This document shows positions 23,756 through 49,921 of a stretch of DNA of 64,000 nt, one piece after another (within the stretch, counting starts at the first letter, position 1; the number at the start of each line of letters is the position of its first letter). The DNA is from Elusimicrobiota bacterium. GTDB lineage: Bacteria > Elusimicrobiota > Elusimicrobia > 2-02-FULL-39-32. The stretch is from NCBI GenBank assembly GCA_021730935.1, contig JAKFYJ010000006.1, forward strand, positions 1 to 64,000. The letters run 5' to 3'. The notes below the pieces were generated by a model. That model was not told the origin of the DNA and did no database searches. It worked only from the letters and a program-made list of their open reading frames with translations. The translations under genes and the position numbers were made by a program.

Positions 23756-24838
23756 TTATTCCTCTTTCTTCAGCTGGTCGGAGCAGAGTTTCATGTAGCG
23801 CGCGGCCATATAATGGTTCGGGTCCTGCTGGAGCACTTTGTCGAATTCGAGGATGGCGTCGGCGAAGCGGCCCGCGCGCATCAGGCGGATGCCTTCTTTA
23901 TAATGCCGTTTCGCGATGCCGCCGAAACGATAGGTCACGCCGAAACGGTGGACGGAAGTGAGGTTCTCATAAGGAACGAACGCATAATCAAATTTGAGGG
24001 ACTCGTTCCAGAAGAGGAGCCCGAAACCCATGGTGAAGTTGGGCGCGATGTCCTTGTCGCTCCTGTATCCGGCGCGCAGGGCCAGGAACCTGCGGGTGGT
24101 GACTTCTCCCCCCATGGCGAACCCGAGGTTTCCATCGGTGGGTTTGCGCATCTCAAAAGTTCCCACCAGGCGGCCGCCCCAATCGGTATAGGAGAGGCCG
24201 AGGTCATATTCGAGAGGGAGAGAGGTTGCTTCCGTGATGAAAGTGGCTTTTGTTCCCATGTTGCGGATGGCGGCGCCGGCGGCCACTTTGGACCACCACT
24301 GGGTTCCGGGGAGGCGATAGAGACCGCCGAGATCGAAACTATACGCGCTGGCGCTTGCGGCAACCAGATCTTCTCTCAGATATCTTGAAGTGATGCCGAA
24401 CTGCAGGTTCTGGCGGATGGTTTTGGCATAAGTAACGCCGAAAGCGGTGTCCGAAGGAGAGAGCATGGAGGTTCGTTTGTTGTTGCGGTCATAACCCTGG
24501 ATGTCGCCGTAGCTCACATTGTGATAGGTCAGGCCGAAGGCTCCGTATTTCGAGTGAGGATAAACATATCCCGCATATTGATATTTGATTTCTTCGAGAT
24601 ATTGGGTGTGGAGGAACCCGATTTCCTGCTGGGCCACGTCCGCGAGGGTGGCGGGATTATAGGAGGCGGAGTTGACGTCGCCGTCCACAGCCACGGCGCA
24701 GTTCGACATGGCCATTTGCCGGGCCCCCACGCCTATCTTAAGGAAGTTGAATCCCGTGGATCCTTTGCCGTCGGCCAGGACCGGCTCGGCATGGAACCCC
24801 AGGAGGAAAAGCAGGACGGCGGTGAATATCCGTTTCAT
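23756..24838 (-). CDS. PorV/PorQ-like (UPF0164-type) outer-membrane protein with C-terminal TPR
   Basis: GSTGFNFLKIGVGARQMAMSNCAVAVDGDVNSASYNPATLADVAQQEIGFLHTQYLEEIKYQ, typical PorV/PorQ-like N-terminus. Confidence 0.8.
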   Translation of the reverse strand: MKRIFTAVLLFLLGFHAEPVLADGKGSTGFNFLKIGVGARQMAMSNCAVAVDGDVNSASYNPATLADVAQQEIGFLHTQYLEEIKYQYAGYVYPHSKYGAFGLTYHNVSYGDIQGYDRNNKRTSMLSPSDTAFGVTYAKTIRQNLQFGITSRYLREDLVAASASAYSFDLGGLYRLPGTQWWSKVAAGAAIRNMGTKATFITEATSLPLEYDLGLSYTDWGGRLVGTFEMRKPTDGNLGFAMGGEVTTRRFLALRAGYRSDKDIAPNFTMGFGLLFWNESLKFDYAFVPYENLTSVHRFGVTYRFGGIAKRHYKEGIRLMRAGRFADAILEFDKVLQQDPNHYMAARYMKLCSDQLKKEE

Positions 24839-25176
24839 CGCACGATCACCAGTTTCCCTTTCTTTTCGTCGGACGCGCTCGTGATGACATAAAAATAAAC
24901 GCCGCTGGCAAGCTCGTTGCCGTCGCTCGCTTTCGCGTTCCAGGCATAAAGCCCCGTTCCGTCGCTGCTTTTGAGCGTGTGGATCAGGAGCCCGTCAGGC
25001 GTATAAATTTTGATGGTGGAATCGGAAGAGAGGTCGGTGAAGGTGATGGAGCTGTCGCCTCTGGAAGGCACGAACGGAACAGGAAAAGCGTGAGCGTTGG
25101 AGAGGGTGGTGGAAGCGCGGCTCCTCGAGGAAGGCGTGGACGAAACAAGAAGCGCCGTCAGGATGAATGCTCCCAT
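24835..25176 (-). CDS. Short secreted protein consisting of signal peptide plus FlgD/T9SS-like C-terminal domain
   Basis: STIKIYTPDGLLIHTLKSSDGTGLYAWNAKASDGNELASGVYFYVITSASDEKKGKLVIVR at the C-terminus. Confidence 0.75.
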   Translation of the reverse strand: MGAFILTALLVSSTPSSRSRASTTLSNAHAFPVPFVPSRGDSSITFTDLSSDSTIKIYTPDGLLIHTLKSSDGTGLYAWNAKASDGNELASGVYFYVITSASDEKKGKLVIVR

Positions 25177-25265
25177 CCTGAAGGTCTTCCTGATGAATAC
25201 TGCCCCCCGACTTTTTTTATTAATTAGAATCCCCCCGACATAACTCCAATTTATTTGTCTTTATA

Positions 25266-25717: not shown

Positions 25718-25720
25718 TTT

Positions 25721-29056: not shown

Positions 29057-30439
29057 ATGAAAACAATCTTGCCGAACGGCGCAGTCAAAGTGCGATGCGG
29101 GGCGGCCCTGAGGAAGGGCTCTGCCTCCATCATGATCGTGCTCATGCTTTCGCTCCTGACCATCATCCCCGTCGCCATGATGATCTCCGGCAGAGCGCAT
29201 CAGGACACGGGGCTTGCCGTGCATGTTGCAGAGGCGGACAATGTCGCGCGTGCGGGCATCATTGACGCTCTCGCGTGGTTCCGGCGCGCCGGCGTGACAG
29301 GGACTGTCGGTGGCGGATATAACGGATCCGCCTTTTTCCCTCGGTTCAATGCAAATCCGGATATGCGCGACACTTTGGATGAAAATATCGGTCTCGTCAA
29401 GGAATATCAGCTGAACTCTCAAAAAAATCTTTGGGCTCGTTATGAGATCCGGAGACAGAAAGATCCTAATCTCGGTAGTGTCAATGCGGCGCTTCCAGTT
29501 GACGCGGCAACAAATCCTCCAAACCCCATTGATCCTCTTGCGGCTCACGACATCACCAACCTGCGGGCTTCTGCTTGGGATTTGGGTCAAGGAGTTGTAT
29601 GGGGCATTGAATCCAAGGGATATGTGTTTCAGAAAAACACTCTCGACCCCACAGTGGCCTTCAATAAAGCGCCCAATGTTGTTTTGGCCACTTCCAGAAT
29701 TTCCTCAGAGTTCCGCAGGTTATATATGGATGCGCCCTATAGTGAAATCGGGAACACCGGAGCCGGTCCAGCCGTCAATGCCGCTATCATCACCGACAAC
29801 GCGGATAATGTTCGGATCGATGGGCTTGGCCGAAGCATCATCCGAGGCGGCAATGTGCCCGCGATCGGATATTATACAGGCGCCGGAAATCCCACGATCA
29901 ACAATCCTGCTAATAAGGAAATCAGAGGGACGCCGACAAACCTCACATTCATTAACGGCGGATTTGATACGCGTTCAGTCGGGACAGGGCGCTTCAACAT
30001 GTGGGAGAATGTCTTTAAAGTTGAATTTCCCGATTCTTTGGTGCAGATGGCGGATGTGATCGCCAACACTGCGGTGGATCTCCCTCAGCTTTATCCAGCC
30101 ATGTCCTTGGTTTATATCAGGGGCAACGCGGATTTCACGCCCCAGCGTCCTCTCAACGGCAGCGGAATTCTTTTTGTGGGTGGGAACATGACCGTCACGG
30201 ATCCCAAGGCCAGGTTCGACGGACTCATTTGCGTCAATGGAAACTTTTCTATCACTGGAGTCGAATCTTCAATTTATGGCAGAATGATTGTCCGGGGGAC
30301 GGTCACAGTGACAGCCCCGAACGCCACCGACAAGGCAGAGATTGTTTATGACCCCGGAACGGTCACCTATGTCCGCAACCAAATTGCCGTATATCGCGAA
30401 ACCAAAACATCTGTATTTCTTTACACAGGTCTAAAATGA
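29057..30439 (+). CDS. PilX-like type IV pilus-associated protein (triad 1)
   Basis: KGSASIMIVLMLSLLTIIPVAMMISGRAHQDTGLAVHVAEADNVARAGIIDALAWFRR; paralog of 35431..36705. Confidence 0.65.
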   Translation: MKTILPNGAVKVRCGAALRKGSASIMIVLMLSLLTIIPVAMMISGRAHQDTGLAVHVAEADNVARAGIIDALAWFRRAGVTGTVGGGYNGSAFFPRFNANPDMRDTLDENIGLVKEYQLNSQKNLWARYEIRRQKDPNLGSVNAALPVDAATNPPNPIDPLAAHDITNLRASAWDLGQGVVWGIESKGYVFQKNTLDPTVAFNKAPNVVLATSRISSEFRRLYMDAPYSEIGNTGAGPAVNAAIITDNADNVRIDGLGRSIIRGGNVPAIGYYTGAGNPTINNPANKEIRGTPTNLTFINGGFDTRSVGTGRFNMWENVFKVEFPDSLVQMADVIANTAVDLPQLYPAMSLVYIRGNADFTPQRPLNGSGILFVGGNMTVTDPKARFDGLICVNGNFSITGVESSIYGRMIVRGTVTVTAPNATDKAEIVYDPGTVTYVRNQIAVYRETKTSVFLYTGLK

Positions 30440-33400
30440 TTAATAACAGAGAATCCGGATTCAGTCTCATGGAAGTGATCGTGGCCATGACCATCCTCCT
30501 GTTCGTCGGGTTTGCCGTGATGAGTTCCTTTCAATCTCTTAAAATGAGTTCAGTCAGCAATCAGGACAAAATTTTTGCGTCTCAAAAAGTGATCCAGATG
30601 ATGGAGGAACTGCGCTCCGTTGCCGTTGCGGCCAGCACCAATCTCACCCAGCTGGACAAATACGCCGACGGCGGCGGCGTGAAGAACAAAGTGCTCACCA
30701 CGCTTGCAGGGGTGAAACCTGAAGACAATCTGAGCGGGAATGCCGGCGGCAGATATTACAGGCAGATCGTCATCGCCAAAATTCCTTCCGATGTCCGTTC
30801 CCGCCGCGTCGAAGTCCGGGTTTTCCTCACCCAGACCGACGAAGTGTTGTCCGAAGGCATCAGCGTCCTCAAGTCCCTGGCTTCCCAGGACATTCCCAAC
30901 CAGGTTTTTGATCTATATGTCCTCAACATCTCCAACAGCCAGAGTTCCTGGGAAAGGCCCGGAGCCCTGGCCGATTTCAACAATTTCATTCTGGACCTGA
31001 ACATCCGAAACCCCGGTCTCGAGATCCGTCCTCATGTGATCACCCGCCTGGCCTATGGCCGCGACCCTTATTATTCCCCTTTCATCAACAACAACCACAC
31101 CGCGGACGACCCTCTGCTCGTCAACAATCCTGTCCTGGGAGTTTATTGGTATCCGGGACGGCTGGACGCGAACAACGCTTATTATGACTCCAACATTTTC
31201 CCAGGCAGGCATTTAAAAGAAAGGTTTCCAATTCCAGCGCCCAACACGGATCCTTATCAGGAACTGGTTCCGCCCAATCCCATATCGGGTCCTGATTATG
31301 TTGCGGGCGTCGGCGTTTCCCCTTTGACCCTCGAACAAGGAGGTTCTGTCGCGGATCAGTTCAACCATGCCGTGCGTTATCCGGATGAAGATCGGCTTTT
31401 TTTAGCGGCCACGAACAGGGCTGATTTTCTCAAGATTCCCAGACCCGAGCCGAGTCTCATGATGATTTTAAATCAGTTGAACATACAGCCCAACGCTTAT
31501 AGAAACGCGATATTCGTCAACCTGCACGGCAACACGCTCCCTCTCCCCCCCATGCGCAACTATTCCGATCCCGCGAAGGACCCTGTCCTCTTCCCCAATG
31601 TCCGCGTGGTGACTCATCCGGAGAGAATTTGGTATGACTCGAATGATACTGCTGATTACAACGATAGAGTGAGACTTCGAGTTTACTCCTATGTCACTAA
31701 TCCCGATGATCCGTTTTGGGGTATTAATCACGATGACGATTTTATTAGTCCCATCTCAATTGTTCTTTCAAACGCGGATAATGAACTTATACCAGCTAAT
31801 CGAATTACAATAAGCAAATACTCTGGAGATTCCGGCACTGCGTATACATTTGGCGGAGCAGACGATGCGGATATTGCAGGAGGGGCGGATGATTTTAGAG
31901 TCCGCGTAAATTTCCCAAGTCCGGGAAAAACCACCATCACTCTTTATAATAGTCACTTGTTCACTCCCAAAAATTTGTTAACTAAGGGTGGCCTTAGGAT
32001 TGCGGATCGGCTCTATGGATTGGAGTATATCCCCTGTACCTTAAATCCGTATAATGCAAATTCTCCTGGTAGAGATTTTTTGGCATTCAGTCCTGGAAAT
32101 GGAGGACTAACTATAAATAATCCCAACGATAATCCCAAGAACACGGCTCGATGGGAGATTAGATTGAATGTCAGCGGACTTTCCAATAATGGCCGGAAAA
32201 TGTACACCATCGAAACGCGAATCGGCGATGTGGTGGCTGATCCCGGGAATATCGGTTTGAACACAGGCGTTGCCGGAAACAAACCGGAGAATCTTTCGCG
32301 CACTTATGTATGGGTTGGAGTTCAGCCTCCCTTCACAGAACAATTCCAATTCATGGGCGACCCGCGCTATATGCCCTATGCGGACATCAAGGCCGCAGGC
32401 GGATATAACCGATATTTTCTGTCCGGCGGCTTGAACGGAAATGGCAATTGGCCCGGATTTAATCTTGCGGAAAAACATTGGTCCTTTGATGGCGCCAACA
32501 CGAAAACAAAACTCAACATCGATCTCCCGGCTTTTTTCAGGGTCTTCAGAAACGGCATCATCGGCTCCCATGCCATCTGGAGCCAATTCAAGGATCTGCC
32601 TTTCGAATATGTTTCCCTGGGCGGCGACATTCCCAGCATGAGATTCACGGCCTATAACCTCCAACAGCTTCCCTGGCGGCCCGGAATGGGCGTTGGAACG
32701 ATTAAAGTGTTTGAAATGGCGCACGATGATGTGTCTGTGGCCTTGACAGGAACAAGGGATTTTCCACCGGATCCCATAACAGGGATTGTCCCCCCGCGGC
32801 CCGTCATCAACCCCGCCATTCCGGCGGATGAAAGAAATTTGCGTTTGATCGCGCGCGCGGCTCCCTTTTGGTGGAGCAACATCTGGCTGGGCGAACTTTA
32901 TCCTGATGATGTTTTCAGCGTGGGTCCGAATAATCCGAACGAAATGAACGATTGGAAGGAAACTGGGAACCTTCCGGTCGGTCCCGGAAATTTCGTCCGC
33001 GCCGCATACAGCAACCTGACCGGAGGCCCTGTCACCGCGTTGAACCTCGACAACGATGCGGCCAACAATCGTTTGACCTTGCATCCCAGAGACAGGACTT
33101 TGACATCATTTTTTAATGGTGGAATAGCTTATGACATTGATTCCATCAATGCCCGGATTGATTGGGGTGTGGCGCCGTTTGACGGAACCCAGATGGGCAA
33201 CCAATTCAAATATGCGCTCCCGATCCAGTTCACTCAGCCTGTGAACTATGGTCCAAATGTTCTTCCCCCTCTTGAATTTAATAATAATCCCTATAATGAC
33301 CGCACGACAATCAATCGAATCAATTGTTTTTATATGCCGAATCCTCCAGGGTCCCAGGTGATGTCCGTGGCAAACTATCGTTTTCAAATCGGCAACAATG

Positions 33401-34044
33401 CGGATGTTGACGCGGGACTCATGTTTTTGGGCGCGGAAACGTCGTTCGCCATGGATAACCGCGACAGATACAGAATTCTCGTTCCTGGTCTTATCTATTC
33501 GTTCATGGAAATGGGAATGCCGAATGGCGGGGTTCTGCCCGCCCAACCGCCTGTCAGTCGTTTCTCTCAACTCCCGAGAGTCAGTCTGCAAACACCTCTG
33601 GGGTCTGTGGACATAACCGACACGGACATCAACAAGGTGAGGATTACCTGGGACGCCTTCTGGTCCAATTGGGAAGGAAACAAATACACCCTGAACTGGC
33701 CGAACTGGGTCAATGGAGCGCCCGCTGTCAACTTTCCAAACGACCCCATTGCATTTCAGATTCTCTATACCATGGACAACGGCAGGAACTGGCATTATAT
33801 ACAGGACCCCCCGAACGCCGCTCCGGCTCGCCTCGGCGAACGGACGGGAACCAAAGATGTTGTTCCCATTCCTGCAAACTTGCCCGTTCTCACTTTTGAC
33901 TGGGACCTCACCGTCGCGGCGGATGTCAACAATCCCGTGAAATATCCTTCGGGAAGCTATATCCTTCGTCTGGAATGTTTTAACCTCCTTCACCCAAATC
34001 AGCATTATTCTTACAACACCCGCCACATTCAGATCAAACGCTAG
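30436..34044 (+). CDS. Giant (1202 aa) PilV-like protein with prepilin N-terminal methylation motif (triad 1)
   Basis: ESGFSLMEVIVAMTILLFVGFAVMSSF prepilin signature followed by about 1170 aa of unassigned sequence. Confidence 0.75.
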   Translation: MINNRESGFSLMEVIVAMTILLFVGFAVMSSFQSLKMSSVSNQDKIFASQKVIQMMEELRSVAVAASTNLTQLDKYADGGGVKNKVLTTLAGVKPEDNLSGNAGGRYYRQIVIAKIPSDVRSRRVEVRVFLTQTDEVLSEGISVLKSLASQDIPNQVFDLYVLNISNSQSSWERPGALADFNNFILDLNIRNPGLEIRPHVITRLAYGRDPYYSPFINNNHTADDPLLVNNPVLGVYWYPGRLDANNAYYDSNIFPGRHLKERFPIPAPNTDPYQELVPPNPISGPDYVAGVGVSPLTLEQGGSVADQFNHAVRYPDEDRLFLAATNRADFLKIPRPEPSLMMILNQLNIQPNAYRNAIFVNLHGNTLPLPPMRNYSDPAKDPVLFPNVRVVTHPERIWYDSNDTADYNDRVRLRVYSYVTNPDDPFWGINHDDDFISPISIVLSNADNELIPANRITISKYSGDSGTAYTFGGADDADIAGGADDFRVRVNFPSPGKTTITLYNSHLFTPKNLLTKGGLRIADRLYGLEYIPCTLNPYNANSPGRDFLAFSPGNGGLTINNPNDNPKNTARWEIRLNVSGLSNNGRKMYTIETRIGDVVADPGNIGLNTGVAGNKPENLSRTYVWVGVQPPFTEQFQFMGDPRYMPYADIKAAGGYNRYFLSGGLNGNGNWPGFNLAEKHWSFDGANTKTKLNIDLPAFFRVFRNGIIGSHAIWSQFKDLPFEYVSLGGDIPSMRFTAYNLQQLPWRPGMGVGTIKVFEMAHDDVSVALTGTRDFPPDPITGIVPPRPVINPAIPADERNLRLIARAAPFWWSNIWLGELYPDDVFSVGPNNPNEMNDWKETGNLPVGPGNFVRAAYSNLTGGPVTALNLDNDAANNRLTLHPRDRTLTSFFNGGIAYDIDSINARIDWGVAPFDGTQMGNQFKYALPIQFTQPVNYGPNVLPPLEFNNNPYNDRTTINRINCFYMPNPPGSQVMSVANYRFQIGNNADVDAGLMFLGAETSFAMDNRDRYRILVPGLIYSFMEMGMPNGGVLPAQPPVSRFSQLPRVSLQTPLGSVDITDTDINKVRITWDAFWSNWEGNKYTLNWPNWVNGAPAVNFPNDPIAFQILYTMDNGRNWHYIQDPPNAAPARLGERTGTKDVVPIPANLPVLTFDWDLTVAADVNNPVKYPSGSYILRLECFNLLHPNQHYSYNTRHIQIKR

Positions 34045-35045
34045 TGATTAAAATGCGCTGCTCCGGAGAAAAGGGGTATAGCCTTCCGGAAATAATGATC
34101 GCTTCGGCCGTCCTCCTCCTTCTCACCGTGATGTTTTATCCGATCATCAAGGTGTCCCAAAGCGGTTCGGTGAAATTCGAAGCAGGCTTCATGATCAAAA
34201 AAGAAGTGCAAAAATGCCTCCTGGAAATTTCCCACCGCCTCGTCCAGTCAAAGCGTGTTTTTGGGAGGACCGACGACATCCGGTTTCTGACCAACCTCAG
34301 CGGACAGACGCCCGAACTCCCGAACAGTCTCCTGCCCCTTATTCAAATCAATGCCACTCCCGGAGCCCCGGGATATCCTCAGGCCAGCGTCGGCAACGCG
34401 CTTTTGTTTGCTTCTCAAGTGAGGTCGCAGGACCTGGACCTCGTGGACGCAAACGCCAATGCATTTTCGGCCCGGATCGACATCTATCGCTTTTACTGTT
34501 ATTTCCTGACGGTCGGCGAGACCAGCGTTTCGAATAAACCAGCCAGGGTTCTTTATCGGTGGGAAAGCGTGGACTATGCAGATTTTTCGCAGATCAACAC
34601 ATTCACTGCCGGACCATCGCTGCGACAGCAGATGATCGTTCAGGCTTTTGCCGCTTTGGGGCTCACGCATGCCTGGAACCCGTCTCAGATCGATTATGCG
34701 GCTTCATTTTTCAAGTTAAAAGCCGATGGAACCATGCCCGGAGAGCCCGGGGCTTATGAAATCGAGAGGCTGACCGAAACGCCGCTGATGACTGTCCAGA
34801 AAGCCACTTCCGGATATCGTTACGGCGTCGCACCGAACACGGACCCTGCGACAAACCCCAAACATCCCGTCCCCCTCTATACCGTCCCGAACGGAGATTT
34901 TCCCTCGGGCTTTGAAGTGATGGTCGGCGGCATCTCCTCCAACCGCCAGGTGTTTTATCGCCTGGTGCTGGCCGCCGAGTCCACTTCCGTCACCACCATC
35001 AGCGTGGAACAGGCCCAGCTCACCACCGTCCGAGACGTTTGGTGA
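34044..35045 (+). CDS. PilW/GspJ-like prepilin-type protein (triad 1)
   Basis: EKGYSLPEIMIASAVLLLLTVMFYPIIKVSQSGSVKFEAGFMIKKEVQK. Confidence 0.7.
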   Translation: MIKMRCSGEKGYSLPEIMIASAVLLLLTVMFYPIIKVSQSGSVKFEAGFMIKKEVQKCLLEISHRLVQSKRVFGRTDDIRFLTNLSGQTPELPNSLLPLIQINATPGAPGYPQASVGNALLFASQVRSQDLDLVDANANAFSARIDIYRFYCYFLTVGETSVSNKPARVLYRWESVDYADFSQINTFTAGPSLRQQMIVQAFAALGLTHAWNPSQIDYAASFFKLKADGTMPGEPGAYEIERLTETPLMTVQKATSGYRYGVAPNTDPATNPKHPVPLYTVPNGDFPSGFEVMVGGISSNRQVFYRLVLAAESTSVTTISVEQAQLTTVRDVW

Positions 35046-35060
35046 CCCGACGACAGGAGG

Positions 35061-35315: not shown

Positions 35316-35354
35316 TTTCCCCGTTTTGGGGGTATATTTCCTTCAAGGCATTTC

Positions 35355-39700: not shown

Positions 39701-40046
39701 CAGCCTCAATTTCGTCTGGACCTCTTCCTGGACCCGCTGGGACAACCAGCCCTATACCTCTTCCTATCCCTCAAATTTCTCCGAAGGCATTCCTCTCGTC
39801 TTCAACGTCAAATATTCCAAAGACAACGGCAAAACCTGGAATTTTATCCAGGACGACGCCGCGGCAAAACCGGGAATTCTGGACAGCGGAGCCTCACACG
39901 CCGTCTCCGCCTATGGATACACCTGGGACGTCTCCAACAGCGCGCAATTCCCCGCCGGGACCTATGACGTCCGCGTCGAGGCGTATCGGACGAACCGGGC
40001 GCTCCACTATGCGTATCAACAGATCCACATGTATTTTCAGCGATGA
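36702..40046 (+). CDS. Giant (1114 aa) PilV-like protein with prepilin motif (triad 2)
   Basis: DRGFSLVEVVVTMSILLFVGLAIMNNFQSLSKAKSG; co-linear homology to 30436..34044 (e.g. NPGLEIRTHVISRLAYGRDPYYSPYIN). Confidence 0.75.
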   Translation: MKNIFSSGEENLMKQDRGFSLVEVVVTMSILLFVGLAIMNNFQSLSKAKSGDFDKTFASEKVIQMIEELRGVASTSKSVDPLDAYNDGNVQNLVLTTLAGVTDPGHPLSGNSNQFYTRNILITTVPNEPDVRKVSARVYLASSKKLLAEAVSIIRSLASKNVPTQVFDLYFIQIENVQAQWAAWPRTTKRDYDTVIQDLQNRNPGLEIRTHVISRLAYGRDPYYSPYINYAVRSDNLNPSDMRVYYYPGFCTNPFDNQPSLIYQPSGVSAKYNWDGVVSKPGPAFASYLDPLLRNTQGDSIADIYNHAVRYPEEERLFALAAAAAENAGLPAPEMSLRMLLEKMSSSPAELQNAMIVNFHGNTLPVPPMRNYSDAAKIPDNHPYVRAVTHPERIKYDLPGNKVKLRVYTYVTNPNDAQWTDHNIALSSFTIVLSTALNPANVSIRKSTGNSFIDYAWQDTNQGGVVDYIVGTDYKHNVTTITVFNSPLFTPEYSSSGRGLKTSRQLYGQEYIPCPVDNTFSYFDPTADFRESGKNLTYAGDIPKNTARWVITLGGGAGMPSLAKGMYTIDTRIGRDTTAGLSGGNQPTNLSRTFVWVGQEVPGSEMIQFMGDPRHMPYADLKSFGLYNQFFTAADLSAQGYENFKIFPASWFNGYNNVLNMDVPRFFMLYRTALQKTESIFNNPATQAFAYLQAGGEIGDVNTRLTPWRPNDNAASGSVREISAPTGSSYSPAESYNRLIARDGANFWYSRFWLGELYPDSEYKDWWQTTGNLPVGSEKYYRALYRKLTGGAVTSQSDLDPADSPATVPANNTRPASMADTRGSASFFNGGKIANSYFSHFSPASGNPANYGDLTTPGLNMAKDFNSVLPSFMDAPRPFRPDDVTAGGYPPEFSTVTYSNVTQRTTLLTFRTVYETRSLEGSHDSSAVIRMSTNTGLMGSVIVSGINGSSAGSQNVTKLSAIELIHTFLDLGLADDSRTPQIPLVAITSPTAVTDFNNPSSLNFVWTSSWTRWDNQPYTSSYPSNFSEGIPLVFNVKYSKDNGKTWNFIQDDAAAKPGILDSGASHAVSAYGYTWDVSNSAQFPAGTYDVRVEAYRTNRALHYAYQQIHMYFQR

Positions 40047-41044
40047 CCCCGCGCGCGACTCCCCAGGCCGGATTCACTCTCGTCGAGATGCTTCTCAGCG
40101 TCACCCTGATGGCCATGATGATCGCCATGGTGGGCCCCATGATCAACCTGACCCGTTCCGGAACGGTCCAATATGAAGCGCACATGCAGATCAAGACCGC
40201 GGCCCAGAAAACCATGAACAAAATCCAGCATCGCCTCGTGGAGTGCAAGCGGCTTTTTCAGGGCACCGCGCCGGACATCCTGTTCCAGATGCGCTGGTCT
40301 CCGGACGGCCAGCCCGAACCCATCAGCGGAAGCGTCCTCCCCGTCATCCAGCCCAACGGGTCTCTTGCGGATCCTTCGGCCCTAAGCGGATCCACCGGCA
40401 ACATGCTTTTCCTCGCGTCTCTGGGCGTGCCTGAAGACCTCAGCGTCCTGAACGGTTCGGGCGTGTCAGAAAACCTCAGGATCGACAATTATCGTTTCTG
40501 TTTTTATTATGTCGGCGCGGGTTCCGGAAAACTGGTCGGCGACAAATTCAACCGGACGCTGTGGGAATGGGAGAGCGTCGCGTATGCCGATTACAGCGCG
40601 ATCATGGCGATCAGCGACACTGCGAAAAGGCTCAACGCGGTCAGCGCATTGATGAACAAAGGTTTTTTATACGCCTGCGACCTTTCCACTGTGACGGCGG
40701 CCGGCGCTTTTTATCTCCTGAACTCCACCGGGACCCTGAGCCCCCAGATATATCACATGATCGTGCGGGATTCCGGGGGCCCGATTGCCGCCATGGGAAA
40801 CATGACCGGGTCCTATAGCTACGGCGTTTCTCCCAACACGGGCGGAACTTTCACTCCCAAGGATTCTGTCCCAAAATTCGCGACAGCGAGCGGTGAATTT
40901 CCGTCGGGATTCGAAGTCCTCGTCACGGGAGTTTCCGGCTCGCGGCAAGTGGTGGCCCGTCTCGTCATGGCGGCTTCCTCCGGCATCACCCGAAGCGTTT
41001 CCTACGAACAGATGATCTACGCCACCGTCCACGACGTCTGGTAA
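40043..41044 (+). CDS. PilW/GspJ-like prepilin-type protein (triad 2)
   Basis: QAGFTLVEMLLSVTLMAMMIAMVGPMINLTRSGTVQYEAHMQIKTAAQKTMNK; paralog of 34044..35045. Confidence 0.75.
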   Translation: MTPRATPQAGFTLVEMLLSVTLMAMMIAMVGPMINLTRSGTVQYEAHMQIKTAAQKTMNKIQHRLVECKRLFQGTAPDILFQMRWSPDGQPEPISGSVLPVIQPNGSLADPSALSGSTGNMLFLASLGVPEDLSVLNGSGVSENLRIDNYRFCFYYVGAGSGKLVGDKFNRTLWEWESVAYADYSAIMAISDTAKRLNAVSALMNKGFLYACDLSTVTAAGAFYLLNSTGTLSPQIYHMIVRDSGGPIAAMGNMTGSYSYGVSPNTGGTFTPKDSVPKFATASGEFPSGFEVLVTGVSGSRQVVARLVMAASSGITRSVSYEQMIYATVHDVW

Positions 41045-41143: not shown

Positions 41144-42091
41144 ATGAAAACGAGATTGCAGGTTATCCTCTTCACCGCCTCTCTCATAAGCTCAGCCGCG
41201 CTGAATGCGGCGCAGACCGGCGGAGCCTTCCTCAAGATCGATCCTTCCGCCCGGAGCTATGCCCTGGGCCAGAGCGGGGCGGTCGCGGCGCTTGGAGCGG
41301 AATCCATCGGGACCAACCCCGCCAATTTAATGGATATGAGCCGCAAAATGGAGCTCATGTCGGCTTATTCCAGCATCAGCGAAGACGTCTCCTATGCCCA
41401 CATTGCCGGCGCCGTCAACCGTTCCATGAACAAGAACCTTCTCGTGGACGCCATCGGCTTCTCTTATACAAGGCTTTCGGTCGGCGGCATCGACGGCAGA
41501 GATTCCGGCGGAAACAAGACGGCGGATTTCGGAAGCGTGGACAGCCAGATGTCCATGAGCCTGAGCGGAAACGCCGGGAAAATGAAATTGGGACTCACGG
41601 GGAAAGTGGTGCAGAGCAAGATCGGGGAATATAAAGCCAACACGGCGTTTGCGGGCGATTTCGGGATGAGCTGGGGGTTCCGTTCTCTGGGCAGAAATAT
41701 TACAGCCGGCGCGAGCGTTTCCAATTTTGGACAGGGCATCAAATATATCAACCAGAAAGATGCCTTGCCCACGACCCTGAACCTGGGCTTGGGAACGGCC
41801 GTGGGGCCCCTGAATCTCATGGGAGGCCTGAAACAGGAATTTAACGGCAAAACAGCGATGAACATGGGCGTGGAATTCAACGCGGGCATGGTTTCCCTGA
41901 GGGCCGGAATGAACGCGCTCAGCGGAAACAAAGGCAACAAAACCTCGAACGGCTTCGACGGATTGTCGAGCGGCGTGGGGTTCAGGATCGGGAACACAAG
42001 AATGGATTATGCCATCGGCCAGGCCAGCGCGGATTTGGGCGTCACCCAAAGATTAAGTTTGACCTTGCAATTTGGAAGAAAACCTGAATAA
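41144..42091 (+). CDS. PorV/PorQ-like outer-membrane protein
   Basis: GGAFLKIDPSARSYALGQSGAVAALGAESIGTNPANLMDMSRKMELMSAYSSI; C-terminal LTLQFGRKPE. Confidence 0.8.
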   Translation: MKTRLQVILFTASLISSAALNAAQTGGAFLKIDPSARSYALGQSGAVAALGAESIGTNPANLMDMSRKMELMSAYSSISEDVSYAHIAGAVNRSMNKNLLVDAIGFSYTRLSVGGIDGRDSGGNKTADFGSVDSQMSMSLSGNAGKMKLGLTGKVVQSKIGEYKANTAFAGDFGMSWGFRSLGRNITAGASVSNFGQGIKYINQKDALPTTLNLGLGTAVGPLNLMGGLKQEFNGKTAMNMGVEFNAGMVSLRAGMNALSGNKGNKTSNGFDGLSSGVGFRIGNTRMDYAIGQASADLGVTQRLSLTLQFGRKPE

Positions 42092-42103
42092 TTACATAGG
42101 CCT

Positions 42104-42499
42104 GTGAAAAATATCGTGGAGGAGAAAAACATGAAACCGAAATATTCAAGAATCGTCGCTGAAGCCATGGTCCCCGCTCTGATTTTATTTGCCGCCTGCA
42201 CCTTCAAGGCCATGGCCCTCTGGGCGTCCGACTCTTCCATCCGGGTCTATCCCAACCCCTGGCGCGCTGGCCAAAATGCCCCCCGATCGGTCACCCTGGA
42301 CAATCTGCCCCTCAACAGCACGGTCAAAATCCTGTCCCTGGCGGGAGACCCCGTAAAAACCCTTTCCGTCCCCGGGGGCTCGGCTTCCTGGGACCTGACC
42401 AATGAGGCAGGAAACAGCGTTACTTCAGGCGTTTATGTCTATGTCGCCAAATCCGAAGGAAACCAGGTTTTTAGAGGCAAAATCGCCGTTATTCGTTAA
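42104..42499 (+). CDS. Short secreted protein: signal/TM segment plus FlgD/T9SS-like C-terminal domain only
   Basis: SIRVYPNPWRAGQNAPRSVTLDNLPLNSTVKILSLAGDPVKTLSVPGGSASWDLTNEAGNSVTSGVYVYVAKSEGNQVFRGKIAVIR. Confidence 0.75.
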   Translation: MKNIVEEKNMKPKYSRIVAEAMVPALILFAACTFKAMALWASDSSIRVYPNPWRAGQNAPRSVTLDNLPLNSTVKILSLAGDPVKTLSVPGGSASWDLTNEAGNSVTSGVYVYVAKSEGNQVFRGKIAVIR

Positions 42500-42603
42500 T
42501 ACTCTCCTCCCTTCCCCTGTAAACCTTTGTAAAACCATGTAAAGGCGTCCTTGTGGTTCCCCCTTTTTAGGGGTACCCTTGGGGTGTCATGGCATCCAAA
42601 ACT

Positions 42604-42657
42604 TTTACATTTTGTTTACATCCCTGTAACTTAATTTCAAGACCCGTCCTTTATAAT
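42604..42657 (+). promoter_or_regulatory. 11-bp-phased TTTAC/GTAAC array plus -10 (TATAAT)
   Basis: tttac 42604, tttac 42615, gtaac 42626, degenerate 42637, N10, tataat 42652-42657. Confidence 0.82.
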
Positions 42658-42663
42658 CAGGGT

Positions 42664-43605
42664 ATGAAAAACAAAATGAAACTCCAGCTGATCGCGGCAC
42701 TGGTCCTCAGCTCAGCGTCCCTGAACGCGGCCGTGAGCGGCGGATCCTTTTTGAAGATCGATCCTTCAGCGAGAAGCTATGCCCTGGGCCAGAGCGGAGC
42801 GGTTGCGGCGCTCGGAGCGGAAGCCATGGGAACGAACCCCGCCAATTTAATGAACATGAGCCGAAAGATGGAAGTGATGTCGGCATATTCCAGCCTGAGC
42901 GAAGGCGTGTCTTATGGCCACATCGCGGGAGCCATAAACAGATCCGTGAACAAAAATCTTCTGGTGGACGCCATCGGCTTCTCTTATACGCGGCTTTCAG
43001 TCGGCGGCATTGACGGCAGAGATTCTTCAGGGAACAAGACCTCAGATTTCGGATCGGACGACAGCCAGATGTCGATGAGCATGAGCGGGAACATCGGGAA
43101 GATGAAAGTGGGAGTGACTGGGAAAGTGGTGCAGAGTAAGATCGGGGAATATAAAGCCAATACAGCGTTTGCGGGCGATTTCGGGATGAGCTGGGGATTT
43201 CGTTCTCTCGGCAGAAACATCACGGCGGGCGCGAGCCTCTCAAATTTTGGACAGGGCATCAAATATATCAACCAGAAAGATGCTTTGCCCACGAGCATGA
43301 ACCTTGGACTCGGAACCGAAGTGGGCCCCTTGAACCTGTTGGGAGGGCTCAAACAAGAACTGAACGGCAAGATGGCGATGAACATGGGATTGGAATTCAA
43401 CGCGGGACTGGTTTCTCTGAGAGCGGGCATGAACGCATTGGGCGGAGCGAAGGGGAGCAAAGGCGGATTCGACGGGCTCTCCAGCGGCGTGGGATTTCGG
43501 ATCGGGAACTCGAGGATGGATTATGCGGTGGGCCAGTCTTCATCAGATTTGGGCATCAGCCATAGATTAAGTTTGACTCTCCAGTTCGGCAAGAAGGCGG
43601 AATAA
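42664..43605 (+). CDS. PorV/PorQ-like outer-membrane protein (start re-assigned to MKNKMKLQ)
   Basis: GGSFLKIDPSARSYALGQSGAVAALGAEAMGTNPANLMNMSRKMEVMSAYSSL; the longer ORF start at 42589 lies upstream of the -10 box. Confidence 0.82.
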   Translation: MKNKMKLQLIAALVLSSASLNAAVSGGSFLKIDPSARSYALGQSGAVAALGAEAMGTNPANLMNMSRKMEVMSAYSSLSEGVSYGHIAGAINRSVNKNLLVDAIGFSYTRLSVGGIDGRDSSGNKTSDFGSDDSQMSMSMSGNIGKMKVGVTGKVVQSKIGEYKANTAFAGDFGMSWGFRSLGRNITAGASLSNFGQGIKYINQKDALPTSMNLGLGTEVGPLNLLGGLKQELNGKMAMNMGLEFNAGLVSLRAGMNALGGAKGSKGGFDGLSSGVGFRIGNSRMDYAVGQSSSDLGISHRLSLTLQFGKKAE

Positions 43606-43607
43606 AC

Positions 43608-46544
43608 ATGAGAAAAATGTCAAACATAGGGACATATGCCGCGGCGTTTTTGTTGTCTGTGTCAACCCCTGTCCCATGCCTTATGGCTGCAGTTCATTCC
43701 ACTGACATCATCTATCAGGACAACCTGCAGTATGAAGGCGCTTTCAGGGTGCCTGTGGGAGATTTCGGCGGGCCGCAATTTCACGGATTTAATTATGGAG
43801 GCACGGCCTTGGGATATAATCCCGCGGCGAACACGCTTTATCTCATGGGCCATGATTCTGACCAACTGATGGCGGAAATCACAATTCCCGGACTGGTCAA
43901 CAGCAAAAATTTAAATGCCTTAAACAGAGCGTCGGTCGTGAAAGGTTTGGTGGACGCAACGGAAGGCAAACTACCCCTCATCAACCCCGGCGATATTAAC
44001 GGGATGAAAGTCGGCGGCATCCTTCCATATAACGGCAAACTATATTTTTCCGCTTATGCCTATTACGACGGAAACGCTACCCAAATTAACACCCATTTCG
44101 TGAGGCCTCTGGATTTGAGCGTAAACGGCCAGACGGTCGGACCTCTCCGGGTGGGCACAGTCAAAGCGGGGCTCATCGCAGGATACATGACTCCGATCCC
44201 GGCTGAATGGCAGGCGGACTTTGGCGGCCCGGCTCTCACCGGACTCTGCTGCATTTCAATCATTGGGAGAACTTCCGAAGGCCCATCGGCCTTCGCCTTT
44301 GATCCGGCCCAGTTGGAGTCTGTGTCTCCTGTCCCGGCAAACCCGCTTTTATATTACCCCATCAATCACGCAAACCTTGGGAACTGGGACAATGTTGCCA
44401 CCGTGAACCTGGGATTCAATATGAGCACGAGCGTCAAAGGCATCGTATTCCCGAAAGCGACCAGGAGCGTCCTGTTCTTCGGCGCCACCGGAACAGGCGT
44501 TCCCTGTTACGGGCCCGGCACAAGCGACCCAAGCAAACACGGTGAACCGGCTCTGGACATAGGAGACACCGCTGACGACTGGTGTTATGACCCCGCCGAC
44601 AACAGCAAAGGGACTCACGCGTATCCCTATATTTATCAGGTCTGGGCTTATGACGCAAACGATTTCGCCGCCGTCAAAAGCGGGCAGAAAAATCCGTGGG
44701 ACATTTACCCTTATGCTCTTTGGAGCCTCGATCTTATGCCCGTGAGCGGCAGAACTCTCGGCGGCGCGGCCTACGATCCTTCGACGGACCGCATCTATGT
44801 ATCTCAGCAATTCGCAGACGGGTCCATGCCCGTCATCCATTCACTCAAAGTCAATGTCGGCGCAAACGCGCCTCCCCTCGACGGCACGGCTCCCGCGGTG
44901 GCCATGAAAAATCCCTCAGACGGCGCCACGGTCTCCAGGGTTATCAATTTAGAAGCCACTGCGACAGACAATGTCGGCATCACCGATGTCGAATATTTTC
45001 TGGACGGAGCCAGCTTTGCTCATGCTTATGTCGGAGTTCCGTTTCCCCACTTATGGGACACTCGTTTGATCGCGAACGGTGTTCACACTCTTTATTCCGT
45101 CGCCAGGGACATGGCTGGAAATTCAAAACAATCTGCAGCGATCATGGTGACGGTCAACAATACTGATAATGTCAAACCTACCGTTTCCATCTCTCTCCCC
45201 GCCAGGAACGCCACCGTTACCCGGAACACCGTCCTGCTTGCAGACGCGTCGGACAACGTCGGGATCGCGGGGGTCAAATTTGTGCTGAACAATTCCGTCA
45301 TCGGTTCCGAAGTCACTTCGGCTCCATTCTCCATGAACTTTGATTTCACGCCGTATGCTAAAGGGAGCTATAACCTCACTGCGGTCGCCAGAGACGCGGT
45401 CGGAAATATTTCGTCATATATGATCGCCATCAACGTCGACAATTCCGTCAATGCCGCGCCTCCCTCAGTTTCCGTCACGGCTCCTTCTGCCAATGCCTCA
45501 ATCACCAGTTCCACTATCGTCACAGCCGCCGCTTCCGACGCCATCGGCGTGGCGGGCGTGCAGTTCAAGGTGGACGGCGCGAATCTAGGGGCTGAGGACC
45601 AGACTTTTCCATACTCGGTCATATGGTTTTCAACGGCGGGCATCAATGGAACCCATCTCCTGACCGCGGTTGCGCGCAATTCTGTCGGGCTCTCCGCCCT
45701 TTCCGCTTCCGTGACCGTAAAAGCAGATAATGTCGTCACCTCCACCACCGTGGCTGGCGGGGTTTCCATCTCCACTGGAAGCAACAATGGCAATAACGGG
45801 AATCCTGGAGGCAACAGCGGCAATTCCGGAAACTCCGGGAACTCCGGCGGGACCACCACCGTCACCGTCAATCCCCCCATTTTCCGCAAAGGCAACATGG
45901 CTGTCGCCGTCGATTCCGGCACCGGCAAAGCGGACATGGTTGAGCTTCCCTCAGACTTAACGAGAAAAACCGCTCTCCTGAGGAAAAATCTCATGCTCCT
46001 TGGAAGCGAAGTGGAGTTCACGATGTCTTCGGGGACTCTGGCTTCTGCGACGATTTATGTCCCCTTCGACGCTTCGCTGATTCCCGCGGGATACACGACC
46101 GCCAATGTGCGGGTGGCTTATTACAATCCCTCCACAGGCCTCTGGGAAATCCAGGACAATGTCTCTGTTCAGGGCGCCCAGCTTCTCTGCACGGTTCCTC
46201 ACTTTTCGATTTATGCTCCCGTGCTGGTCAAACCTGCGTCGGCTCCGGAACTCCAGGAAATCTATGTGTTCCCGAACCCGACCGTCGGTTCTGACAACCC
46301 CACGATCCGCGTCAAGATGGGCCAGGTGGACACGGTGGAAGTGGACATTTATGATTTGTCCGGAGCCAAAGTTCACAGCGCGAGTTTCTCCGGAGAGTCC
46401 CCCCAGATCGGTTCAGACGCGCAATTTTATTATGACTATGCCTGGACAGAAGAAAAAGCCAGCGGCGTCTATATCGCCGCCGTCAAAGGCAAAACAGCAT
46501 CAACCACCGTCAAAGCCAAGGTCAAATTCGCCGTCGTCAGATAA
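43608..46544 (+). CDS. Large modular secreted protein: N-terminal unassigned domain, three bacterial Ig-like repeats, Gly/Asn linker, FlgD/T9SS-like C-terminal domain
   Basis: Repeats APAVAMKNPSDGATVSR.../KPTVSISLPARNATVTR.../PPSVSVTAPSANASITS...; C-term EIYVFPNPTVGSDNPTIRVKMG...ASGVYIAAVKGKTASTTVKAKVKFAVVR. Confidence 0.8.
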   Translation: MRKMSNIGTYAAAFLLSVSTPVPCLMAAVHSTDIIYQDNLQYEGAFRVPVGDFGGPQFHGFNYGGTALGYNPAANTLYLMGHDSDQLMAEITIPGLVNSKNLNALNRASVVKGLVDATEGKLPLINPGDINGMKVGGILPYNGKLYFSAYAYYDGNATQINTHFVRPLDLSVNGQTVGPLRVGTVKAGLIAGYMTPIPAEWQADFGGPALTGLCCISIIGRTSEGPSAFAFDPAQLESVSPVPANPLLYYPINHANLGNWDNVATVNLGFNMSTSVKGIVFPKATRSVLFFGATGTGVPCYGPGTSDPSKHGEPALDIGDTADDWCYDPADNSKGTHAYPYIYQVWAYDANDFAAVKSGQKNPWDIYPYALWSLDLMPVSGRTLGGAAYDPSTDRIYVSQQFADGSMPVIHSLKVNVGANAPPLDGTAPAVAMKNPSDGATVSRVINLEATATDNVGITDVEYFLDGASFAHAYVGVPFPHLWDTRLIANGVHTLYSVARDMAGNSKQSAAIMVTVNNTDNVKPTVSISLPARNATVTRNTVLLADASDNVGIAGVKFVLNNSVIGSEVTSAPFSMNFDFTPYAKGSYNLTAVARDAVGNISSYMIAINVDNSVNAAPPSVSVTAPSANASITSSTIVTAAASDAIGVAGVQFKVDGANLGAEDQTFPYSVIWFSTAGINGTHLLTAVARNSVGLSALSASVTVKADNVVTSTTVAGGVSISTGSNNGNNGNPGGNSGNSGNSGNSGGTTTVTVNPPIFRKGNMAVAVDSGTGKADMVELPSDLTRKTALLRKNLMLLGSEVEFTMSSGTLASATIYVPFDASLIPAGYTTANVRVAYYNPSTGLWEIQDNVSVQGAQLLCTVPHFSIYAPVLVKPASAPELQEIYVFPNPTVGSDNPTIRVKMGQVDTVEVDIYDLSGAKVHSASFSGESPQIGSDAQFYYDYAWTEEKASGVYIAAVKGKTASTTVKAKVKFAVVR
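45781..45857 (+). repeat. Low-complexity Asn/Gly/Ser linker repeat (GNSGNSGNSGG type)
   Basis: aacagcggcaattccggaaactccgggaactccggc in the coding frame. Confidence 0.85.
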
Positions 46545-46640
46545 TCCCTCCCCCTGTAAACCCTTGTAAAGGCATGTAAAGGCGCTCTTGCGGTTCCCCC
46601 CTTTCGGGGTTACCCTTGGGATGTCATGGCATTCAAAACT

Positions 46641-46694
46641 TTTACATTTTGTTTACATCCCTGTAACTTAATTTCAAGCTTGACCCTTTATAAT
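46641..46694 (+). promoter_or_regulatory. 11-bp-phased TTTAC/GTAAC array plus -10 (TATAAT)
   Basis: tttac 46641, tttac 46652, gtaac 46663, degenerate 46674, N10, tataat 46689-46694. Confidence 0.82.
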
Positions 46695-46700
46695 CATAGT

Positions 46701-47642
46701 ATGCAAAACAAATTGAAATTTCAGCTGATCGCGGCACTGGTCCTCAGCTCAGCGTCTCTGAACGCGGCCGTGAGCGGCGGATCCTTTTTGAAGATCGATC
46801 CTTCAGCGAGAAGCTATGCCCTGGGCCAGAGCGGAGCGGTTGCGGCGCTCGGAGCGGAAGCCATGGGAACGAACCCCGCCAATTTAATGAACATGAGCAG
46901 AAAGATGGAAGTGATGTCGGCTTATTCCAGCCTGAGCGAAGGCGTGTCTTATGGCCACATCGCGGGAGCGATCAACAGATCCGTGAACAAAAATCTTCTG
47001 GTGGACGCGATCGGCTTTTCTTATACGCGGCTTTCAGTCGGCGGCATTGACGGCAGAGATTCTTCAGGAAACAAGACCTCAGATTTCGGATCGGACGACA
47101 GCCAGATGTCGATGAGCATGAGCGGGAACATTGGGAAGATGAAAGTGGGCGTGACTGGGAAAGTGGTGCAGAGCAAGATCGGGGAATATAAAGCCAATAC
47201 AGCGTTCGCGGGTGATTTTGGAATGAGCTGGGGATTTCGTTCTCTCGGCAGAAATATCACGGCGGGCGCGAGCCTCTCAAATTTTGGACAGGGCATCAAA
47301 TATATCAACCAGAAAGATGCTTTGCCCACGAGCATGAACCTTGGACTCGGAACCGAAGTGGGCCCCTTGAACCTGATGGGAGGGCTCAAGCAGGAACTGA
47401 ACGGGAAGACGGCGATGAACATGGGATTGGAATTCAACGCGGGACTGGTTTCTCTGAGAGCGGGCATGAACGCATTGGGCGGAGCGAAGGGAAGCAAAGG
47501 CGGATTCGACGGGCTCTCCAGCGGCGTGGGATTTAGGATCGGGAACTCAAGGATGGATTATGCGGTGGGCCAGTCTTCATCGGATTTGGGCATCAGCCAT
47601 AGATTAAGTTTGACTCTCCAGTTCGGCAAGAAGGCGGAATAA
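46701..47642 (+). CDS. PorV/PorQ-like outer-membrane protein, near-identical paralog of 42664..43605 (start re-assigned to MQNKLKFQ)
   Basis: Protein nearly identical to 42664..43605 across its whole length. Confidence 0.82.
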   Translation: MQNKLKFQLIAALVLSSASLNAAVSGGSFLKIDPSARSYALGQSGAVAALGAEAMGTNPANLMNMSRKMEVMSAYSSLSEGVSYGHIAGAINRSVNKNLLVDAIGFSYTRLSVGGIDGRDSSGNKTSDFGSDDSQMSMSMSGNIGKMKVGVTGKVVQSKIGEYKANTAFAGDFGMSWGFRSLGRNITAGASLSNFGQGIKYINQKDALPTSMNLGLGTEVGPLNLMGGLKQELNGKTAMNMGLEFNAGLVSLRAGMNALGGAKGSKGGFDGLSSGVGFRIGNSRMDYAVGQSSSDLGISHRLSLTLQFGKKAE

Positions 47643-47644
47643 AC

Positions 47645-49921
47645 ATGAAAAAAATATTTCTGATTTTTCTTCTCCCCCTTTCCCAAACAGCATTCGCAGT
47701 CAATGAACCCCTTTTGCATCAGTCCGACATTTCTTATGTGGGCTCGTTCCGGATGCCCGCGGGCAAGCTGGGGTCGAACAACGGGTTCGATTACACGATC
47801 AAAGGCATCGCTTATAATCCGGCCAACGATTCTCTTTTCATCAGCGGGAGCATCTTTGAACAGAAAGTTGCGGAAATCAGCATTCCGAGTCCCGTCAACA
47901 GCGTCAACCCCGCCCTTCTCCCGAGAGCGGCGGCTTTGCAAAATTTTCAGGATATCACGGAAGGAAATTTAACGAACATCGGCGCGGGCGGAGCGAGCTG
48001 CTGCGCCAACGGGGACCAGGTGGGAGGACTCTTCGTTCATTCCAACCGCCTCATCGGAAATGTGTATTCATTTTATGACGCCGGTCACGAAGCTAAACTT
48101 TCACATTTCACGTCCGGGCTAAATTTGTCCGTGCAGGGCGATTTCGGAGGGATGTATCAGGTGGGCTCTATCAACCCTGCATTTGTTGCGGGTTACATGG
48201 CGTCCATTCCCCCTGAATGGCAGGCGTCCCTCGGCGGCCCGGCTTTGACAGGTCAATGTTGCCTTTCCATCATCGGAAGAACCTCTGAAGGTCCCGCCGC
48301 TTCTGTTTTTGATCCGGACGATTTGGGCGTGAGAACTCCCGTTCCCGCAACCCCCGTGGTTTATTACGACATCAATCATCACAACCTTGGAAATTGGGAC
48401 AACAAGTCCATTTCAAATCCTGTTTATAATATGGGGACTGCGATTCAGGGCCTGGTTTTCCCTGAAGGAACCTCCAGCGTATTGTTTTTCGGAAGGACGG
48501 GCCTGGGCATTCCCTGTTATGGAGAAGGCACAAACAATCCTGCGTTGGACCAACTTCCTGTTCCAGGCCAGGGCGACATTTATTGTTATGATCCTCTGGA
48601 CAACACAAAAGGAACTCACGCCTATCCCTATACCCAATATGTGTGGGCCTATGATGTGAACGATTTGATCTCTGTCAAGAACGGGCAGAAAAACCCCTGG
48701 GACATTTATCCTTACGACACCTGGGCTTTCAAATATCCGACGGTCCCCGATTCCATTAACATCATGGGCGCGGCTTATGATCCCGTGACGCAAAGAATAT
48801 TCATCGCCCAGAACCATGGAGATCCCGCGGTTTATGACCCGCCCATCATTCATGTTTATCATGTGAACGCCGCCGGAGGCATCCAAACAAACCAGGCTCC
48901 CTGGGCTTATGCCGGAATGGACTTGAGCGTCGATGTTTCCTCCACTGTCAGTCTCAAAGGCATTGCGACCGACGACAATCTTCCCAGCCCTCACGCGCTC
49001 TCGTATTCGTGGAGCCGGGTGAGCGGAAGCGGAACCGTCACATTCACCAACGGGGCGAGACTCAATGCCTCCGCAGATTTTTCTGCCTCGGGAAGTTATG
49101 TCCTCCGTCTGACCGTCAGCGACGGCTCTCTCTCCGCAACGGACGACATTTCTGTCACTGTCACGGGAACTCCCTTAAATGGGAACAATTCCGGCAACAA
49201 TGGCGGCAACTCCGGCAACTCCGGCGGGACCACCACCGTGACAGTCAATCCCCCCATTTTCCGCAAAGGCAACATCGCGGTCGCCGTCGATTCCGGAACC
49301 GGCAAAGCGGACATGGCCGAGATCCCCTCGGATGCCACACGGAAAACCGCTCTCCTGAGGAAAAATCTCACGCTCCTTGGAAGCGAAGTGGAGTTCACGA
49401 TGTCTTCGGGGACTCTGGCTTCTGCGACGATTTATGTTCCTTTCGACGCTTCGCTGATCCCCGCAGGATACACGACCGCCAATGTGCGCGTCGCTTATTA
49501 CAATCCCTCCACAGGCCTCTGGGAAATCCAGGACAATGTCACTGTTCAGGGCGCCCAGCTTCTCTGCACGGTTCCTCACTTTTCGATTTATGCTCCCGTG
49601 CTGGTCAAGCCTGTGTCGGCTCCGGAACTCCAGGAAATCTATGTGTTCCCGAACCCCACCGTCGGCTCTGACAACCCCACGATCCGCGTCAAGATGGGCC
49701 AGGTGGACACGGTAGAAGTGGACATTTATGATTTGTCCGGCGCCAAAGTTCACAGCGCGAGTTTCTCCGGAGATTCCCCCCAGATCGGTTCAGATGCGCA
49801 ATTTTATTATGACTATGCCTGGACCGAAGAAAAAGCCAGCGGCGTCTATATCGCCGCCGTCAAAGGCAAAACCGCGTCCAGCACCGTTAAAGCCAAGGTG
49901 AAATTCGCCGTTATTCGTTAA
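47645..49921 (+). CDS. Modular secreted protein: N-terminal domain homologous to 43608 protein, one PKD/cadherin-like domain, Gly/Asn linker, FlgD/T9SS-like C-terminal domain
   Basis: Shared LGNWDN, GTHAYPY..VWAYD, KNPWDIYPY blocks; C-term EIYVFPNPTVGSDNPTIRVKMG...KVKFAVIR. Confidence 0.8.
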   Translation: MKKIFLIFLLPLSQTAFAVNEPLLHQSDISYVGSFRMPAGKLGSNNGFDYTIKGIAYNPANDSLFISGSIFEQKVAEISIPSPVNSVNPALLPRAAALQNFQDITEGNLTNIGAGGASCCANGDQVGGLFVHSNRLIGNVYSFYDAGHEAKLSHFTSGLNLSVQGDFGGMYQVGSINPAFVAGYMASIPPEWQASLGGPALTGQCCLSIIGRTSEGPAASVFDPDDLGVRTPVPATPVVYYDINHHNLGNWDNKSISNPVYNMGTAIQGLVFPEGTSSVLFFGRTGLGIPCYGEGTNNPALDQLPVPGQGDIYCYDPLDNTKGTHAYPYTQYVWAYDVNDLISVKNGQKNPWDIYPYDTWAFKYPTVPDSINIMGAAYDPVTQRIFIAQNHGDPAVYDPPIIHVYHVNAAGGIQTNQAPWAYAGMDLSVDVSSTVSLKGIATDDNLPSPHALSYSWSRVSGSGTVTFTNGARLNASADFSASGSYVLRLTVSDGSLSATDDISVTVTGTPLNGNNSGNNGGNSGNSGGTTTVTVNPPIFRKGNIAVAVDSGTGKADMAEIPSDATRKTALLRKNLTLLGSEVEFTMSSGTLASATIYVPFDASLIPAGYTTANVRVAYYNPSTGLWEIQDNVTVQGAQLLCTVPHFSIYAPVLVKPVSAPELQEIYVFPNPTVGSDNPTIRVKMGQVDTVEVDIYDLSGAKVHSASFSGDSPQIGSDAQFYYDYAWTEEKASGVYIAAVKGKTASSTVKAKVKFAVIR

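Follow-up and report, generated by a model that had tools for sequence, protein, structure and literature searches.

In the type IX secretion system (T9SS) of Bacteroidota, cargo handed over by the outer-membrane barrel PorV loses its C-terminal domain (CTD) to cleavage by PorU; PorV also holds PorU itself, and PorQ holds PorZ (PMC5562754). PorP/SprF barrels keep type B cargo attached (PMC9143113, PMC12618676, PMC5562754), and PorP makes contact with PorE, a periplasmic protein (PMC9143113). A 2024 paper confined T9SS genes to Bacteroidota and the other phyla of the Fibrobacteres–Chlorobi–Bacteroidetes (FCB) group (PMC11285876), and a 2025 paper described the system as exclusive to Bacteroidota (PMC12618676). 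In the literature that we searched (most subscription papers and bioRxiv preprints lay outside it), we found no description of a T9SS, PorV or type IX secretion in Elusimicrobiota. Here we analyze a 64,000-nucleotide stretch of an Elusimicrobiota genome (contig JAKFYJ010000006.1, positions 1 to 64,000; hereafter the window) that contains four pairings of a PorV/PorQ-family barrel gene with a gene for a protein ending in a T9SS-like CTD, in which an earlier note had seen possible T9SS-like secretion in an unexpected lineage. We propose, with moderate confidence, that these pairs are four units of a T9SS-like export and display system found throughout this genome and the Elusimicrobiota, in which SprA would export CTD-bearing cargo and each cargo's own barrel would serve as its lasting, non-covalent anchor.

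We searched the source genome (2.7 Mb in 96 contigs, 95% complete) for barrels with the PorV/PorQ-family model NF033709 of NCBIfam (cut-off 90 bits) and for CTDs with the T9SS type A model TIGR04183 (cut-off 23 bits). All eight window genes lay where the earlier note had placed them and passed these cut-offs, and the CTD stood at the extreme C terminus of all four partners, with the common short tails that the note had described. The eight genes, referred to below by their first coordinates, are listed here; the score of the 46626 barrel comes from the genome search and covers its whole frame, and the other three barrels were scored by hmmscan.

23756-24838, minus strand: PorV/PorQ-family outer-membrane barrel of 360 amino acids with a C-terminal TPR (NF033709, 177.8 bits; PF19572, 49 bits)
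24835-25176, minus strand: CTD-only mini-protein of 113 amino acids, with a signal peptide and a type-A-like CTD (TIGR04183, 28.1 bits)
41144-42091, plus strand: PorV/PorQ-family barrel of 315 amino acids (NF033709, 117.3 bits)
42104-42499, plus strand: CTD-only mini-protein of 131 amino acids as called (TIGR04183, 24.0 bits; PorZ CTD region, 64.7 bits)
42589-43605, plus strand: PorV/PorQ-family barrel, likely true start 42664 (NF033709, 119.8 bits)
43608-46544, plus strand: surface-type cargo of 978 amino acids, with an N-terminal domain, three Big_7 immunoglobulin (Ig) domains, a conserved pre-CTD domain and a type-A-like CTD (PF17957, 136 bits; TIGR04183, 25.5 bits)
46626-47642, plus strand: PorV/PorQ-family barrel, tandem copy of 42589, aligned with the other three, likely true start 46701 (NF033709, 120.3 bits)
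47645-49921, plus strand: surface-type cargo of 758 amino acids, with an N-terminal domain related to that of 43608, a PKD-like domain and a type-A-like CTD (PF22352, 49 bits; TIGR04183, 30.0 bits)

The pairing of barrels with CTDs is well supported. The genome holds 34 PorV-family genes (38 NF033709 matches, some genes being split into pieces) and 38 CTD genes (counted after dropping one duplicated contig end and weak matches), and 26 of the 34 barrel genes, including the pair at 15067/16061 of contig C45, adjoin a CTD gene on the same strand, where ~1.1 would be expected (binomial p ~1e-32). The overlap with the CTD gene is exactly 4 bp for 15 barrel genes. A tail pattern that we chose post hoc was present in 36 of the 38 CTD proteins, compared with 11 of 353 other open reading frames of the same loci, and among the matches listed, at least 20 like pairs occurred across 14 other Elusimicrobiota genomes. 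Barrels and CTDs also diverged in concert: over 23 pairs, barrel distances correlated with CTD distances (Mantel r 0.55), and the correlation persisted when recent duplicates were removed (r 0.46), with none of 20,000 permutations as high in either case. Upstream of the CTD, most cargo–cargo comparisons showed no relationship.

The earlier note had proposed searching the whole genome for SprA/Sov, and this search uncovered two SprA/Sov-like genes, both outside the window. The first, P0011, encodes 1917 amino acids and scored 129.6 bits (E 7e-38) with the SprA model TIGR04189, under the equivalog cut-off of 200; the second, P0012, encodes at least 1365 amino acids before running off the end of its contig and is homologous to P0011. 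The P0012 operon also contains two CTD genes, one PorV-family gene and one gene for a PorV-like barrel that carries an OmpA domain. When searched alone against the PDB with phmmer, P0011 had no match; a profile built from ten Elusimicrobiota SprA-like proteins, each of which matches TIGR04189, had SprA as its sole PDB match (E 5.6e-30). Among named genomes, a scan for SprA retrieved one Elusimicrobia bacterium, with 74% identity, and a single contig of Candidatus Fermentibacteria. On these sequence grounds, the presence of an SprA-like translocon in the genome is well supported. In most Elusimicrobiota loci examined, the SprA-like gene is adjoined by lptF/lptG-like genes, usually divergent, and a comF-like gene lies on its opposite flank (L038 10387-18375; L101-L120).

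The three components were widespread and kept company across the phylum. In a survey of 150 Elusimicrobiota genomes from 59 genera, SprA-like proteins were present in 129 genomes and 52 genera, the PorV family in 135 genomes and the CTD in 115, and CTDs occurred in 112 of the 129 SprA-positive genomes compared with 3 of the 21 SprA-negative ones (p 5e-11). The pattern was starkest within one genus (g25), where 13 of 14 SprA-positive genomes and none of 13 SprA-negative genomes had a CTD (Fisher p 7e-7) and the PorV counts were identical (p 7e-7). SprA, PorV and CTD genes were thus lost together in this genus, where the small size of the genomes means that overall genome loss plays a part. This joint retention and loss, together with the near-universal SprA/Sov homologues, bears out the suggestion of T9SS-like secretion in an unexpected lineage.

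What accompanies the translocon appears to differ from the known system. The sortase family of PorU (peptidase C25) was not found in the source genome, in a search that had no valid positive control, or in 149 of the 150 surveyed genomes; the one positive genome (E 1e-31) served as the positive control for the survey. This sole C25-bearing genome is G006, with matches on contigs C83 and C55 (L099, L100). No credible match to GldL or GldM was found in the source genome, and GldM was detected in none of the 150 genomes, with no known-T9SS genome among the controls. Because C25/PorU is absent and GldL and GldM were not detected, the system does not appear to be a standard T9SS, although the GldL and GldM results are weak negatives. 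In 10 of 23 loci, genes for M6-type metalloproteases lie in the SprA neighborhood with PorV-family genes close by; all 11 of these proteins contain HExxH, and 10 contain a CTD, the eleventh being cut by the end of its stretch. From their sequences these proteases, of which the source genome has copies P0017 and P0019, are candidate stand-ins for PorU.

We infer that cargo with a signal for Sec and an Ig-like CTD at its C terminus would exit through the giant SprA/Sov-like barrel, whose gene lies elsewhere in the genome, and that the PorV/PorQ-family barrel, usually encoded beside the cargo, would draw the CTD out of the translocon. The cargo would then remain bound, because there would be no PorU-type sortase to release the barrel by cleaving the CTD, and each barrel would thereby provide its own cargo with a lasting anchor at the surface. 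Permanent loading of barrels would also explain why so many are needed. At times the barrel would be tied to peptidoglycan or periplasmic partners through a LysM, OmpA or TPR domain of its own. Such domains were found on several barrels (LysM on three, one of them slightly below cut-off; OmpA on one; TPR on four), which fits anchoring to the cell wall or periplasmic partners. Another PorV-family barrel, at L062 7107-8207 (plus strand), has a C-terminal helix-hairpin-helix domain (HHH_3, 35 bits), a fold usually linked to DNA binding. By analogy, the best reading of such non-covalent barrel anchoring likens it to PorQ–PorZ and SprF–SprB. As a more tentative extension, which we consider possible but doubtful, the Elusimicrobiota might possess a distinct type IX branch outside the FCB group, without C25 and perhaps without GldL/GldM, that would combine SprA export and a co-evolving barrel for each cargo with a LysM/OmpA tie to peptidoglycan and an M6 metalloprotease replacing PorU.

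A rival account would be that the partners, unconnected with SprA or type IX export, are ordinary proteins of the surface or periplasm that end in FlgD-like Ig domains and sit next to FadL/UPF0164-like barrels. Some barrels of the genome do score with the UPF0164, FadL or TraF families (and two with PF11751, PorP_SprF), and a CTD profile matched FlgD structures (E 3e-8) as strongly by score as PorU and PorZ. However, the profile, 98 positions long, aligned nearly end to end with PorU (5–97) and PorZ (4–98), whereas FlgD omitted at least the first 17 positions and most of the tail. Moreover, an AlphaFold2 model of 24835, in which mean pLDDT (predicted local distance difference test) was 70–90 per ten-residue block over residues 41–113, retrieved PorZ (5m11) first from the PDB (E 7e-5), followed by the CTD of NucA, as bound in the SprA complex, and by PorU, with FlgD lower, and the PorZ CTD region was likewise the top NCBIfam match of 24835 (57 bits). 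The 23756 barrel found the solved F. johnsoniae PorV structure 6h3i_F (phmmer, E 1e-8), and the loss of all three components (SprA, PorV and CTD) in a single genus speaks against this account, which we consider quite improbable. The Elusimicrobiota might instead have the full set of a standard T9SS, with motor, ring and sortase genes that our models fail to recognize owing to strong divergence or an unusual family. Even the SprA-like proteins score under the equivalog cut-off, which means that smaller components that evolve fast could escape detection, and the GldL/GldM searches lacked a valid positive control while PorK and PorN were not searched for. Yet C25 was detected in one genome (E 1e-31) and not in the other 149, and the conserved SprA neighbors (lptF/lptG-like, comF-like and GAPDH-like) include no recognized motor gene; we judge a complete standard system very unlikely.

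The barrels might alternatively act as shuttles, as in the known T9SS, if a CTD-cutting protease other than PorU freed them. The best candidate would be the CTD-bearing M6 metalloprotease encoded, along with a PorV-family gene, beside SprA, as its recurrence near SprA, mostly with a CTD, would suggest. M6 proteases are not known to have a transpeptidase role, and their cleavage of CTDs is hypothetical. In keeping with the idea, P. gingivalis PorU carries a CTD of its own and pairs with PorV (PMC5562754). But one freed shuttle could serve many cargoes, leaving both the ~34 barrels and their co-divergence with CTDs unexplained, and we therefore consider this alternative unlikely.

Several observations weigh against the export-and-anchoring system that we favor, in addition to the failure to detect GldL and GldM. 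About 10 of the 38 CTD genes have no adjacent barrel, some of them at contig ends, and 8 of the 34 barrel genes have no adjacent CTD gene. Three genomes have CTD genes but no detected SprA, possibly because their assemblies are fragmented. Co-duplication of linked genes could alone yield a barrel–CTD correlation without binding, so the correlation speaks for long-term partnership rather than for binding. A read-through fusion of 41144-42496 folded with a pLDDT of 35, too low to bear on barrel–CTD binding. Finally, the 41144 barrel is close to those of 42589 and 46626 (81% DNA identity to both genes) although the 42104 CTD falls in a different clade from the CTDs of 43608 and 47645, such that this pair shows no co-divergence and may be mismatched. 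The earlier note's proposal of dedicated receptor/cargo pairs is accordingly upheld in part: genome-wide pairing and co-divergence favor it, but the CTD genes without adjacent barrels and the 41144/42104 pair depart from it.

The scanned window barrels matched PorV and PorQ models, although all three missed the equivalog cut-offs (250 bits for PorV and 220 for PorQ). The 23756 barrel was closer to PorQ (125 bits) than to PorV (83 bits), and its TPR_2 match (24 bits) was slightly below the cut-off of 27. The window CTDs matched TIGR04183 while falling below the cut-off of Pfam PF18962, and none of the four matched the type B model TIGR04131, which the CTDs of PorP/SprF-type pairs would be expected to match. 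In the minus-strand unit, the CTD gene lies upstream of the barrel gene with a 4-bp overlap. The plus-strand units at 42589-46544 and 46626-49921, judged by their sequences, are a recent tandem duplication: DNA identity is 95.5% over the PorV genes and 93.9% over the CTD ends, and the final 230 residues of the 43608 and 47645 products are nearly identical, with the middle of the cargo diverged. The four window pairs are thus not four independent events. The barrel starts at 42664 and 46701 are likely the true ones, in agreement with the earlier note, and 42104 probably begins at the ATG at 42131, behind a good ribosome-binding site, giving ~122 amino acids.

Apart from a signal peptide and a CTD, the partners 24835 and 42104 contain scarcely anything. 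Such CTD-only mini-proteins paired with barrels occur at 24835-25176, 42104-42499 and C37:8524-9006, with similar frames of 137–216 amino acids in relatives, and possibly act as a plug or a PorZ-like subunit. At the other end of the size range, contig C1 of the same genome (L073) contains a 15,660-amino-acid open frame that ends in a type IX-like CTD (13327-13620, minus strand) with no adjacent barrel gene, and further CTD frames of 6181 and 3040 amino acids lie at contig ends.

Two genes lie downstream of the 23756 barrel, the first probably and the second possibly in the same operon:

22482-23750, minus strand: TPR-repeat protein (TPR_2, 57.9 bits)
20214-22430, minus strand: TonB-dependent receptor (PF00593, 101 bits; PF07715, 68.5 bits)

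Elsewhere in the window, 29057-41044 contains two tandem three-gene cassettes. Their 1202- and 1114-amino-acid proteins are 36% identical and start with a type IV pilin-like N-methylation motif, and they are unusually large for pseudopilins.

Compared with the Bacteroidota T9SS, the system of this genome shares a SprA/Sov-like translocon, PorV/PorQ-family barrels, type-A-like C-terminal Ig domains and very large cargo, but it belongs to another phylum, has ~34 PorV-family paralogues paired with cargo, lacks C25/PorU and detectable GldL/GldM, and has SprA beside lptF/lptG-like genes. The PorQ–PorZ and PorU–PorV pairs of P. gingivalis likewise consist of a CTD protein held by its own barrel, as we propose here, and the 24835 CTD is nearest to PorZ as the 23756 barrel is nearer to PorQ; those pairs, however, build one sortase complex, whereas the Elusimicrobiota have many pairs with varied cargo, some of it CTD-only. 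The type B CTD and PorP/SprF pairs of F. johnsoniae and P. gingivalis offer the same arrangement of a barrel gene beside its cargo gene, a dedicated shuttle or anchor, and some orphan cargo. They differ in that the Elusimicrobiota barrels are mostly of the PorV/PorQ family, some fused to LysM, OmpA or TPR domains, and the CTDs are type-A-like.

The SprA-like translocon in 129 of 150 Elusimicrobiota genomes contradicts the reported restriction of the T9SS to Bacteroidota (PMC12618676) or to FCB phyla (PMC11285876) and raises the question of the system's age or route of spread. Should the absence of motor and sortase be real, a minimal core of translocon, barrel and CTD would be set apart from Bacteroidota additions. 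The dozens of barrel–tag pairs in a single genome also constitute a natural data set for how a barrel recognizes its own tag.

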